Assembly (NCBI RefSeq): GCF_020164435.1
Contig: NZ_JAIUDQ010000003.1
Coordinates: forward strand, 1 to 64,000
Origin: Phyllobacterium lublinensis
GTDB lineage: Bacteria; Pseudomonadota; Alphaproteobacteria; Rhizobiales; Rhizobiaceae
Length of the DNA stretch: 64,000 bases
Direction of reading: 5' to 3'
How positions within the stretch are numbered: the stretch's first letter is position 1; every line of letters begins with the position of its first letter. The notes beneath the pieces are model-generated. The model did no database searches, was not told the DNA's origin, and was given only the letters and a program-made list of their open reading frames with translations. The translations under genes and the position numbers were made by a program. Of the stretch, positions 48,512 to 61,536 are shown in pieces.

Positions 48512-48627
48512 CGGTCGCCTTTATGGTCTTATTTGCCGCAGCCTTCGCAGATGGAAACTGTTGAAAGCTCGGCCTGATCCGTTCACGATCCCGTGACAGC
48601 AACCGATCAGGACGAGACCGGTCAGGG

Positions 48628-49941
48628 ATGATGGGGAAAAGATTGAAACAGGCAACACCGCCGCTCGCGAGTGTCGCATCAAGCCCAGGCGGCGTCATGG
48701 GATTTCCAGCACATGCAGAACGTGCCGTTGCACTCGGCGAGGTGCACGCGCGGCCTTATCCGCTTGTGGATACGCCGCGCCTGCTGATCCAGCTTGCCTT
48801 CATGACGGAAGGCGGATCGACAGTCGACCACGCCGTGTTGGCCGAACTCAGCCGGAGCATTGGCATAGCGCCGCCGGCTCGTGATGCCCGCCACCACATC
48901 ATGCCCTGGGGCAATGGAACGCTCCGGTGGGAGCGGCATACGGAGTTTTCGACCTATCTTTGGGAGGGGCCCATGCCGCGCGACGGCAGTGTGGCCCAAC
49001 ATCCCTTTGGCCATGGGTTCAATCCTCCCGGGACGGTGATCGACGGTGTCCGGTTGGAAATCATCAAGAAGGATCGAAATGCCCAGGCATTGATTTCCGA
49101 ATTCGACCCCGCAAGCCTTTGCTATAGTGATGTCGAAAACGGGCTGGCCTCGATCGTCACCGATTTCCGGCAGGATCGCGATGGGATGACCCGCATCCTG
49201 ATTCTCGACAATGGCCTGTCTCCGGCCCGCGCTGGCGCACTGTCGCAGAGGGTCATTGAAATCGAAACCTATCGCACGCTCGCCATGCTGGGCCTTCCGC
49301 TGGCACATTCGCTGTCGCCGCGCATCCGTCGTATCGAAGACAGGCTTGCCGGGCTCACCAATGAGATGCGGGACTCCACGTCGGACAGTCACAAGCTGCT
49401 CGACGAGTTGACGTCATTGGCCGCTGAACTTGAGGCTGACGCCGCCTCCAGCCTTTATCGCTTCGGGGCAAGTCGCGCGTACAATGGCATTGTTCTGGAA
49501 CGGCTGGCAGCGTTGCAGGAAGAGCCTGTGACCGGCTACGAAACCTGGGGCGCTTTCATCCAGCGCCGCATGGCACCGGCGATGCGAACCTGCCGTTCGG
49601 TGAGCGGACGGCAGGAGAGCCTGTCTGAAAAGCTTTCCCGGGCCGCGACCTTGCTGCGCACCTCCGTGGACGTCGAACTCGAGCGCCAGAACCGGGACCT
49701 GCTCACCTCGATGAACAAACGTGCCCAATTGCAACTGCGGTTGCAACGGACCGTCGAGGGCCTGTCGGTAGCAGCGATCTCCTATTACGTCGTCGGTCTG
49801 TTCTATTATCTGGCGCGTGGCGCAGAAACCTATATTCCCGAACTGCACGCGTCAGTGCTGACTGCCATCTTCGTGCCCATTGCGATTCTGGCGATGTGGT
49901 ATGTGGTCAAGGCCATCCGCAAATCACATGCGGAGGATTGA
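48628..49941 (+). CDS. DUF3422-family membrane protein
   Basis: A 437-residue protein. The N-terminal part reads AHAERAVALGEVHARPYPLV, characteristic of DUF3422, and the body has long helices including a region near residues 230-350 that looks coiled-coil. Two C-terminal membrane segments (about residues 380-397 and 409-428) anchor it in the inner membrane. Function is unknown; the family resembles CorA-like proteins in its large cytoplasmic domain with two C-terminal membrane helices, but lacks the GMN motif. It is divergent from the GntR gene. Confidence 0.85.
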   Translation: MMGKRLKQATPPLASVASSPGGVMGFPAHAERAVALGEVHARPYPLVDTPRLLIQLAFMTEGGSTVDHAVLAELSRSIGIAPPARDARHHIMPWGNGTLRWERHTEFSTYLWEGPMPRDGSVAQHPFGHGFNPPGTVIDGVRLEIIKKDRNAQALISEFDPASLCYSDVENGLASIVTDFRQDRDGMTRILILDNGLSPARAGALSQRVIEIETYRTLAMLGLPLAHSLSPRIRRIEDRLAGLTNEMRDSTSDSHKLLDELTSLAAELEADAASSLYRFGASRAYNGIVLERLAALQEEPVTGYETWGAFIQRRMAPAMRTCRSVSGRQESLSEKLSRAATLLRTSVDVELERQNRDLLTSMNKRAQLQLRLQRTVEGLSVAAISYYVVGLFYYLARGAETYIPELHASVLTAIFVPIAILAMWYVVKAIRKSHAED

Positions 49942-60165: not shown

Positions 60166-60201
60166 ACTCCTATCAACTCTATGTGAAGTCGTGGCGGTTC
60201 T

Positions 60202-60227
60202 GTAACCTTTGCGGCAGATCATACGTA
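60202..60227 (+). promoter_or_regulatory. ECF-type promoter GTAACC-N16-CGTA upstream of msrB-msrA
   Basis: GTAACC (60202-60207), a 16-base spacer, and CGTA (60224-60227), about 55 bases before the msrB start. This matches the GTAACC-N16-CGAA-type promoter of the SigF/RpoE1-RpoE4 (ECF16-like) sigma factors of Caulobacter and Sinorhizobium, which control oxidative or sulphite-stress genes including methionine sulphoxide reductases. Confidence 0.55.
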
Positions 60228-60280
60228 TTTCCTTCAGAAGACCGGACGAAGTTCGGTATAATGCTGTTGGGAGTCTGGCC

Positions 60281-60775
60281 ATGATCACACGTCGAGCGCT
60301 TTTTGGCAGTGCGCTAGCAGGACTTGGAGTATATGCCGCGACGCGGTTTGCCGGAACGCCGAACGCAAAGGCAGCCGGTAAGTTCGAAGTCGAGCACACA
60401 GCCGCCGAATGGAAAAAGCTGCTTACTGACGAGCAGTACTACGTGTTGCGCGAGGAGGGAACCGAGCGGCCGTTCACCAGCCCGCTCAACCACGAAAAGC
60501 GCAAGGGCGTATTCGCCTGTGCCGGCTGCGACCTGCCGCTCTTCAATTCGGACACCAAATTCGACAGCGGCACCGGATGGCCAAGTTTCTGGTCCCCCAT
60601 CAAGGGGTCGGTCATCGAAATATCAGACAATTCGTTTGGCATGATGCGCACTGCAGTCGAGTGCCACCGTTGCGGCGGCCACCTTGGTCACGTCTTTGAC
60701 GATGGACCAAAACCGACCGGTCTGCGCTATTGCATGAACGGCGTCGCGTTGAAGTTCAAACCTGCATCTGCCTGA
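60281..60775 (+). CDS. msrB: Methionine sulphoxide reductase B, predicted Tat-exported
   Basis: A 164-residue enzyme that reduces methionine-R-sulphoxide. The catalytic domain has the zinc pairs CAGC and CHRC, the TGWPSFW segment, and the catalytic Cys in GLRYCMNG. The N-terminus has an unusual twin-arginine (ITRRALFGSALAGLG) followed by a hydrophobic stretch, indicating Tat export to the periplasm. Start ATG 60281 follows GGGAG. It is 16 bases ahead of msrA and behind an ECF-type promoter, giving a periplasmic repair pair. Confidence 0.9.
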   Translation: MITRRALFGSALAGLGVYAATRFAGTPNAKAAGKFEVEHTAAEWKKLLTDEQYYVLREEGTERPFTSPLNHEKRKGVFACAGCDLPLFNSDTKFDSGTGWPSFWSPIKGSVIEISDNSFGMMRTAVECHRCGGHLGHVFDDGPKPTGLRYCMNGVALKFKPASA

Positions 60776-60791
60776 ACTCGAAGGAATTCCC

Positions 60792-61481
60792 ATGAAACTC
60801 CGTCATCTCCTGCTTGCCGCCGCCATCGTTTTGTCGCCCGGCCTTGCGCTCGCCGCAGAGGCGGTCACCATGGTCCCGCCGCCGGCGCTCGATCAGAAAT
60901 CTTCGGCCAAATCCGAAACGGTGGTCCTCGCTGGCGGATGCTTCTGGGGAGTCCAGGGTGTGTACCAGCACATGAAAGGCGTAACCAGCGCCGTCTCCGG
61001 CTATTCGGGCGGCACAAAGGAAACAGCAAGTTATGAAATCGTCAGTGGTGGCGACACTGGACACGCGGAAGCAGTAGAGGTCACTTTTGATCCGAAAGTG
61101 GTCAGCCTCGGAAAGATCCTCCAAGTGTACTTCTCCGTGGTCCACAACCCGACTGAACTGAATCGCCAGGGTCCGGACTCCGGGACGCAATATCGTTCGG
61201 CCATCTTCACGACCGGCGCTGATCAGGAGAAGGTAGCAACTGCCTACATAGGCCAGCTGGACAAGGCAAAGGCCTTTTCGAAGCCTATCGTGACGACAGT
61301 CTCACAGCTGGTGAAATTCTATCCGGCCGAAGCCTATCACCAGGACTATGCGACGATCCATCCGACACAGCCCTATATCGCCTATTATGACCTGCCCAAG
61401 ATTGAAAATCTGAGCAAGCTATTTCCCGAAGACTACAGGAAAAAGCCGGTCCTGGTTGGCGACGCAAAGCCTTCCAACTGA
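60792..61481 (+). CDS. msrA: Methionine sulphoxide reductase A, predicted Sec-exported
   Basis: A 229-residue enzyme that reduces methionine-S-sulphoxide. The active-site motif GGCFWG is near residue 48, with YSGG and YEIVSGG following, and YHQDY is near residue 182. A Sec signal peptide (about residues 1-22, LLLAAAIVLSPGLALA) precedes a short linker, so the protein is expected in the periplasm. Its neighbour MsrB uses a Tat-type signal instead. The pair would repair both sulphoxide forms outside the cytoplasm. Confidence 0.92.
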   Translation: MKLRHLLLAAAIVLSPGLALAAEAVTMVPPPALDQKSSAKSETVVLAGGCFWGVQGVYQHMKGVTSAVSGYSGGTKETASYEIVSGGDTGHAEAVEVTFDPKVVSLGKILQVYFSVVHNPTELNRQGPDSGTQYRSAIFTTGADQEKVATAYIGQLDKAKAFSKPIVTTVSQLVKFYPAEAYHQDYATIHPTQPYIAYYDLPKIENLSKLFPEDYRKKPVLVGDAKPSN

Positions 61482-61493
61482 TGGAACAAATAA

Positions 61494-61518
61494 AAAAGGC
61501 CGCTTGCAGCGGCCTTTT
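61494..61518. terminator. Bidirectional terminator between msrA and the DoxX gene
   Basis: AAAAGGCCGC (61494-61503) and GCGGCCTTTT (61509-61518) form a 10-bp stem with a five-base loop; A-rich and T-rich flanks let it act on both strands. Confidence 0.85.
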
Positions 61519-61536
61519 CATCGATTGTTGTTTTCA

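Follow-up and report, generated by a model that had tools for sequence, protein, structure and literature searches.

A predicted exported methionine sulphoxide reductase pair with an ECF16-type promoter and a candidate CenR-type site in Phyllobacterium lublinensis

Organisation of the msrB-msrA locus

The analysed stretch of DNA (hereafter the window) is a 64-kb piece of contig C22 of a genome of 4.5 Mb (88% complete) from a rhizobia-related soil bacterium. The locus comprises hisG, a gap of 115 bp, msrB, msrA and a hairpin, followed by the convergent genes doxX and fumC (Table 1). According to profile searches MsrB belongs to the SelR family (PF01641, 170 bits) and MsrA to the PMSR family (PF01625, 189 bits). 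A search with MsrB revealed the Rhizobiales isolate L003 (85% identical MsrB) and Phyllobacterium pellucidum L004 (80%) as the closest relatives at this locus. In total 80 relatives were kept from this search, 45 of them alphaproteobacterial and 35 beta- or gammaproteobacterial as classed from the record titles. Since they include many Bradyrhizobium, the counts among them are not independent, and all p-values ignore kinship.

The ATG at 60281 was taken as the start of msrB as it fits the GGGAG site and the relatives, and the TTG at 60209 offered by a mechanical list of open reading frames was rejected. On the plus strand, the T-run of the hairpin downstream of msrA is an arm of the stem itself. 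DoxX was not accepted as a member of the unit because its gene is convergent and adjacent to the pair only in L003 and L004 among the 80 relatives.

Table 1. Predicted features of the msrB-msrA locus (window positions).
Feature	Position	Strand	Remarks
TCAA-CTCTAT-GTGA dyad (TCAC-N6-GTGA type), candidate CenR-type operator	60173..60186	.	7/8 match
-35 element GTAACC	60202..60207	+	sequence and conservation
-10 element CGTA	60224..60227	+	sequence and conservation
Sigma-70-like TTCAGA-N18-TATAAT, possible basal promoter	60233..60262	+	one found versus a mean of 0.9 in shuffles
GGGAG ribosome-binding site of msrB	60269..60273	+	read from sequence
msrB, methionine-R-sulphoxide reductase, predicted to be exported	60281..60775	+	two CxxC (zinc) pairs, catalytic RYC, Thr at the position of the resolving Cys
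MsrB twin-arginine signal peptide	60281..60373	+	cleavage after AKA, position 31, by eye
msrA, methionine-S-sulphoxide reductase, predicted to be exported	60792..61481	+	single Cys after the signal (GCFWG)
MsrA Sec-type signal peptide	60792..60854	+	cleavage after ALA, position 21, by eye
Hairpin between msrA and convergent doxX, probable terminator	61493..61519	.	hairpin search: minus strand only

A conserved ECF-type promoter upstream of msrB

The promoter motif GTAACC-N16-CGTA, which a sequence-only reading of this DNA had placed in front of msrB-msrA, is present in its exact form at 60202-60227 and ends 53 bp upstream of msrB. Its -35 region (TGTAACC, 60201-60207) matches the ECF16 element TGTAAC(C). 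In a scan for further copies, as had been proposed, the exact form proved unique within the window (one of 100 window shuffles gave any match). The looser form GTAAC-N16/17-CGWA has 66 matches genome-wide, with about 8e-4 matches expected in the hisG-msrB gap. With 66 loose matches one genome by itself cannot exclude chance, and the rarity of the motif in its own genome was rejected as standalone evidence; a control with the backward pattern (293 matches) was set aside due to its different composition.

It is the conservation of the motif that convinces. Within 220 bp upstream of msrB GTAAC-N16/17-CGTA was detected in 43 of the 45 alphaproteobacterial relatives, all of them with CGTA, versus 37 of 2455 control windows from the same loci. 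Among the beta- and gammaproteobacterial relatives one of 35 carries a motif at this place (Variovorax, CGA). The spacer sequences diverge between the relatives, and the -35 and -10 boxes stay. Given the offset of 6 bp described for ecfF (PMC3420878), transcription of msrB would be expected to start near 60233.

Assignment of the promoter to ECF16

The genome encodes one NrsF/DUF1109 anti-sigma factor (E 1.3e-65, sole match), whose gene is located behind an ECF sigma factor gene; the ranking of this sigma factor as ECF16 rests on its NrsF partner. The sigma factor gene is preceded by GTAAC-N16-CGAA, and GTAAC-N17-CGAA was found upstream of the divergent unit on contig C42. This unit is predicted to encode a methionine-rich exported peptide (L138 5788-6057; MXKDX family, 40.7 bits versus a cut-off of 41), a b561-type cytochrome (PF01292) and an MsrP-like molybdoenzyme, which has an RR start and scores under the MsrP cut-off. 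Another GTAAC-N16-CGAA on contig C42 (L139, 73709-73733) lies 68 bp upstream of a histidine-phosphotransferase-like ORF (by eye) and may be due to chance.

NrsF is encoded in all 44 motif-bearing genomes among the relatives; of the 34 motif-less genomes 26 are without NrsF and eight, all beta- or gammaproteobacterial, possess it (this tally excludes the L037 and L075 genomes). A survey of the order covered 89 msrB loci from 88 of the 147 other genomes in which MsrB was matched, the 88 being taken in listing order together with a deliberate pick of NrsF-encoding ones. Of the 42 msrB loci in NrsF-encoding genomes 13 have the motif (nine CGTA, four CGAA), versus none of the 47 loci in genomes without NrsF (Fisher 2e-5, kinship ignored). 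Three of the 13 (L207, L208, L270) are located 184-202 bp upstream, apparently in the end of the upstream gene, and may be coincidental. No motif was found upstream of msrB at the other 29 of the 42 loci, 18 of which encode a MsrB classed as lacking a signal, nor in the eight beta- and gammaproteobacterial genomes with NrsF. Thus, ECF16 control of msrB is not universal. Three motif-bearing loci (L264, L273, L290) encode a MsrB classed as signal-less. As the ECF16-type motif at L273 (421-500) and L290 precedes a MsrB without signal peptide, promoter type and export are not always linked.

On the sigma factor side of 63 NrsF loci we obtained 30 promoter matches, placed by position, of which 26 carry CGAA and four CGTA. 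CGTA therefore seems to lie within ECF16 usage, and the idea that the conserved CGTA indicates a sigma factor other than ECF16 was set aside. The general ECF16 consensus has CGAA as the -10 element and a spacing of N16. The msrB promoter fits in its spacing and departs in its CGTA, which agrees with the CG(t,a) reported for EcfF of Bradyrhizobium japonicum (PMC3420878). This sigma factor is reported to control three Msr genes via GTAAC(g,a)-N14-15-(c,t)CG(t,a), a consensus spacing equal to that at the msrB of the window (PMC3420878). Against such control being general, the msrA homologues of Caulobacter were unaffected by SigF (PMC3511200).

In Sinorhizobium meliloti RpoE1, RpoE3, RpoE4 and RpoE6 are ECF26 sigma factors with listed promoters mostly of the type GGAAT...CGTC, and RpoE7 alone belongs to ECF16 (PMC6180224). 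The sequence-only reading had likened the motif to SigF/RpoE1-4 type promoters with a response to oxidative or sulphite stress. Its call of an ECF-type promoter is borne out by the conservation and the co-occurrence with NrsF and can be narrowed to ECF16 (SigF/EcfF/BcrS). The likeness to SigF holds, and that to RpoE1-4 does not, RpoE1, RpoE3 and RpoE4 being ECF26. The sulphite response is left unsupported because the sulphite-responsive RpoE1 and RpoE4 are ECF26 sigma factors with other boxes (PMC6180224); this reading was rejected as both the ECF26 -35 GGAAT and -10 CGTC are absent at the msrB promoter. The assignment of this promoter to the ECF16 type instead of the ECF26 type of RpoE1/RpoE4 appears well supported. 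The examples of EcfF and BcrS make a response of msrBA to oxidants or hypochlorite plausible.

Predicted export of MsrB and MsrA

The N-terminus of MsrB, MITRRALFGSALAGLGVYAATRFAGTPNAKA, contains twin arginines and that of MsrA, MKLRHLLLAAAIVLSPGLALA, is Sec-like without RR, both as read from the sequence. As expected of a Tat substrate, the twin arginine of MsrB lies ahead of a hydrophobic stretch and is conserved: RR occurs in 78 of its 80 relatives and KR in the remaining two. Among the loci of the order that a simple hydrophobicity rule classed as exported, 58 of 59 carry RR or KR, a few of the RR/KR loci (e.g. G116, G164, G179) with the pair at a place where a Tat motif is unexpected. The MsrA proteins of the window and of the two closest relatives have a plain Sec-like signal. 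Since the Pseudomonas relatives of MsrA possess an RR-bearing N-terminus, the Tat/Sec split is not general. The earlier assignment of Tat to MsrB and Sec to MsrA is supported by sequence and conservation, and export via two routes is plausible at this locus.

Cysteine pattern and candidate electron donor

Both CxxC pairs were recognised by pattern in all 46 alphaproteobacterial MsrB sequences including that of the window, and RYC in 45 of the 46; in 15 of the 35 beta- and gammaproteobacterial sequences the first pair escaped this pattern, which is a crude one. At the position of the resolving Cys (SGCGWPSF in the two-cysteine type) Thr was present in all 58 scorable of 81 sequences, window included, the other 23, which are beta- or gammaproteobacterial, being left unscored by the pattern SGxGWPSF. 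Counted from GCFW onwards, 40 of 41 MsrA proteins, including that of the window, have a single Cys; their genes were located by tblastn. The usual resolving Cys was found neither in the MsrB nor in the MsrA of the window. As the catalytic Cys is the only one outside the zinc sites, both enzymes would need an outside thiol.

The best candidate electron donor appears to be DipZ, a relative of thiol reductases that is located in the membrane and contains a thioredoxin-like domain. Its gene lies downstream of msrB in 24 of the 80 relatives (the match in L070 is partial and that in L065 is truncated at a contig border). In the genome of the window it is located on another contig, unlinked to msrBA. 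The protein matches the DipZ structures 2hyx and 5cyy; its thioredoxin domain also matches that of MsrA/MsrB fusion proteins (2fy6, 2jzr, 2h30), though far less strongly. No ECF16 motif was seen in front of this gene, which led us to reject control of dipZ by ECF16 here. DipZ matches, many of them partial, were obtained in 40 of 50 genomes and none in the other ten, so that other donors must exist. Our literature search found no work joining DipZ, msrB and methionine sulfoxide reductase. A cluster on contig C5 (L157 18-6246) contains genes for a response regulator, a histidine kinase, DipZ, an OsmC-like and a MarR-like protein and a cytoplasmic msrB-msrA pair, named by eye except for DipZ, MsrA and MsrB; the MsrB encoded there is without CxxC pairs.

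Extracytoplasmic MsrA and MsrB activities are known from the Neisseria MsrAB (PilB) and from pneumococcal SpMsrAB2-Etrx-CcdA, which receive electrons through a partner of the thioredoxin fold and a carrier in the membrane. In contrast to these, the enzymes of the window are separate, are of the single-cysteine type, and include a MsrB that is apparently exported by Tat, with DipZ as the candidate donor.

A dyad upstream of the -35 element

Upstream of the ECF16-type promoter of msrB the sequence TCAACTCTATGTGA was found 15 bp from the -35 element. On the minus strand it reads TCACATAGAGTTGA and scores 10.1 bits on a matrix that was built from 30 Rhodobacter sphaeroides CenR sites (PMC9275681), the median of which is 10.6 bits; across the window a score of this size is reached at 23 of 127,970 strand-positions. 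In the same genome the promoter of the methionine-rich peptide is preceded by TCACCAATGCGTGA 5 bp upstream of GTAAC, and within 60 bp of the ECF sigma factor promoter no dyad better than 6/8 was found.

TCAC-N6-GTGA with at most one mismatch and within 200 bp of msrB occurs in 30 of the 45 named alphaproteobacterial relatives versus 2.0 in shuffled sequences, 0-6 with other spacings (N2-N12) and 0 in coding controls. The same criterion yielded 34 of the 89 loci of the order versus 4.9 (shuffled), 2-10 (other spacings) and 1 (coding). The coding controls peak at N11 for the 45 named relatives (14 of 45) and at both N10 and N11 for the loci of the order (13 of 89 each), which indicates that relatedness alone can inflate the dyad counts. 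The dyad was present at 12 of 20 exported-MsrB loci with NrsF and 17 of 37 without, and at 5 of 32 other MsrB loci. It is also present in L010 and L040, which are both without NrsF and GTAAC motif; as these are MAGs, the absence of NrsF carries little weight. With a match of at least 7/8 it precedes 19 of 31 ECF16 sigma factor promoters (shuffled 3.8%) and 8 of 10 divergent promoters (shuffled 2.9%), where in divergent layouts one dyad may count for both promoters (L164, L224, L225, L248, L251). Its distance to the -35 element varies (4-5, 12-17, 20-21 and 36-42 bp).

With the CenR matrix 22 of the 89 loci of the order score at least 11 bits versus 1.2 shuffled and 0 coding, and 5 of the 45 named alphaproteobacterial loci at least 10 bits versus 1.8 shuffled; the low count in the latter is probably caused by the differing spacers of Bradyrhizobium. 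The dyad thus resembles, at the level of sequence, the sites of the envelope regulator CenR. Term searches of the three ECF16 papers (including PMC3420878 and PMC3511200) revealed no such repeat, and the palindrome strings searched in the literature were found only in the S. meliloti CenR work (PMC9561847). For Caulobacter sigF a still unknown second regulator has been reported to act between -37 and +37 (PMC3511200), which is not the position of the dyad.

Two further repeats were noticed. A perfect dyad, TCACGATCCCGTGA, is located in the window at 48583-48596, 31 bp upstream of the ATG at 48628, and is a candidate CenR-type site; the ORF starting there encodes a probable membrane protein and is divergent from a GntR-like ORF (both by eye). 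A TCAC-N5-GTGA-like repeat occurs in 20 of the 35 beta- and gammaproteobacterial upstream regions (among L003-L082); this peak was left aside as it possibly reflects shared ancestry of similar Pseudomonas sequences.

Comparison with known systems

Given the gene order of strain USDA110, bll5855 of B. japonicum probably corresponds to the MsrB of the window, given that msrB lies beside flagellar genes in Bradyrhizobium relatives. The EcfF-OsrA system of this organism resembles the one proposed here in its ECF16 sigma factor with NrsF-type anti-sigma factor, its three methionine sulfoxide reductase genes and its promoters GTAAC-N16/17-CG(t,a), and differs in the proposed electron donors Bll1026-1027; one of its proteins, Blr7043, is predicted to be periplasmic (PMC3420878). 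The available part of that paper contains neither "twin-arginine" nor "palindrom", and the single "inverted repeat" in it refers to ecfQ.

The BcrS-AbcS/bcrXQP system of Brucella melitensis consists of an ECF16 pair, a divergently encoded methionine-rich peptide and homologues of MsrQP, and in this it is comparable to contig C42 (PMC8315932). It is HOCl-inducible with CGAA as -10 element. It differs in that no MsrBA target was found in the part of PMC8315932 available, and in that the cytochrome of the present genome is of the b561 type.

The CenK-CenR sites of R. sphaeroides (PMC9275681) and S. meliloti (PMC9561847) have the form T(C/G)(A/G)C-N6-GTGA upstream of the -35 element, as at msrB, though the R. 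sphaeroides motif is called a direct repeat, TGA-N8-TGA, by its authors. In R. sphaeroides a msrA without predicted signal peptide is a direct, activated CenR target (PMC9275681), and in S. meliloti mutation of AGTCAC-N6-GTGACT lowers the activity of the srlA promoter (PMC9561847). No link to ECF16 was found in the accessible portions of these two works, and "ECF" is absent from that of the R. sphaeroides paper.

Alternative explanations

Besides control by ECF16 we considered that another sigma factor reads the msrB promoter, either ECF26 (RpoE1/RpoE4, sulphite) or the general-stress ECF15, or that the motif has no role. ECF15 promoters have a -35 GGAAC and a -10 beginning with CGT. The CGTA at msrB also starts with CGT, like the listed ECF26 -10 elements (PMC6180224). 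However, the -35 GTAAC shared by 43 of 45 relatives is neither the ECF26 GGAAT nor the ECF15 GGAAC, the presence of the motif tracks the ECF16 anti-sigma factor, and CGTA recurs in four of the 30 sigma-side matches at NrsF loci, which makes another sigma factor very improbable. If the motif had no role, msrBA transcripts would start at the sigma-70-like site or arise by read-through out of hisG, for which the TATAAT at 60257-60262, kept in L003, and the 66 loose matches in the genome could be cited. TATAAT is not conserved in L004, which keeps GTAAC and CGTA, the conservation of the motif is far over that in the control windows, and no motif was detected in genomes in which NrsF had not been detected; we therefore give this explanation very little credence.

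A larger, though still minor, weight is due to the proposal that msrBA is mainly driven by a CenR-type regulator at the dyad with another sigma factor and that the ECF16 promoter is secondary. The dyad accompanies exported msrB regardless of NrsF (12 of 20, 17 of 37), including L010 and L040 without GTAAC and NrsF, and CenR of R. sphaeroides directly activates a msrA (PMC9275681). On the other hand, the dyad is found in fewer of the named alphaproteobacterial loci (30 of 45) than the ECF16 boxes (43 of 45) and at a varying distance from the -35 element, which renders the proposal rather unlikely. With regard to export, MsrB might use Sec or stay in the cytoplasm, the twin arginine being incidental, as RR occurs in Sec signals too and G116, G164 and G179 carry the pair outside the expected Tat position. 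The occurrence of RR or KR in all 80 relatives and in 58 of 59 exported loci of the order, the latter by a crude rule, speaks against this, and we regard it as quite unlikely.

Proposed model

As a whole, the data are best explained by msrBA forming a two-gene operon of an ECF16 (SigF/EcfF/BcrS-type) regulon, with a probability of roughly 0.75. The only ECF16 sigma/NrsF pair detected is presumed to sense periplasmic oxidants, by analogy peroxide or hypochlorite rather than sulphite, whereupon the released sigma factor would transcribe msrBA from GTAACC-N16-CGTA. MsrB would be exported in folded form by Tat, perhaps because its zinc is loaded in the cytoplasm, and MsrA by Sec. The substrates of the two enzymes would be envelope proteins and the regulon's own methionine-rich peptide, whose R and S methionine sulphoxides they would together reduce. 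The enzymes would themselves be reduced directly by an outside thiol, possibly supplied by DipZ. The CenR-type site upstream of the -35 element would probably provide a second, envelope-stress input, and dual control of msrBA by ECF16 and a CenR-like regulator appears probable from the sequence.

More tentatively, and with less than even confidence, we propose that exported methionine repair in many Hyphomicrobiales is under joint NrsF/ECF16 and CenK-CenR control, with CenR acting just upstream of the ECF16 -35 element at msrB(A), the sigma factor gene and the peptide operon. If true, an ECF holoenzyme would here cooperate with a response regulator. Msr genes under ECF16 control and a msrA under CenR control have been published separately; what is new, within a partial literature search and with a prior CenR-ECF16 link being possible, is their meeting at one promoter. 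The dyad, the absence of the resolving Cys in both enzymes and the position of DipZ downstream of msrB as candidate donor are likewise new here.

Extracytoplasmic methionine repair in Gram-negative bacteria is usually told via MsrPQ. The locus described here suggests a second route, which is based on thiols, follows an export logic of its own and has DipZ as a candidate donor; its promoter may integrate two signals of envelope stress.
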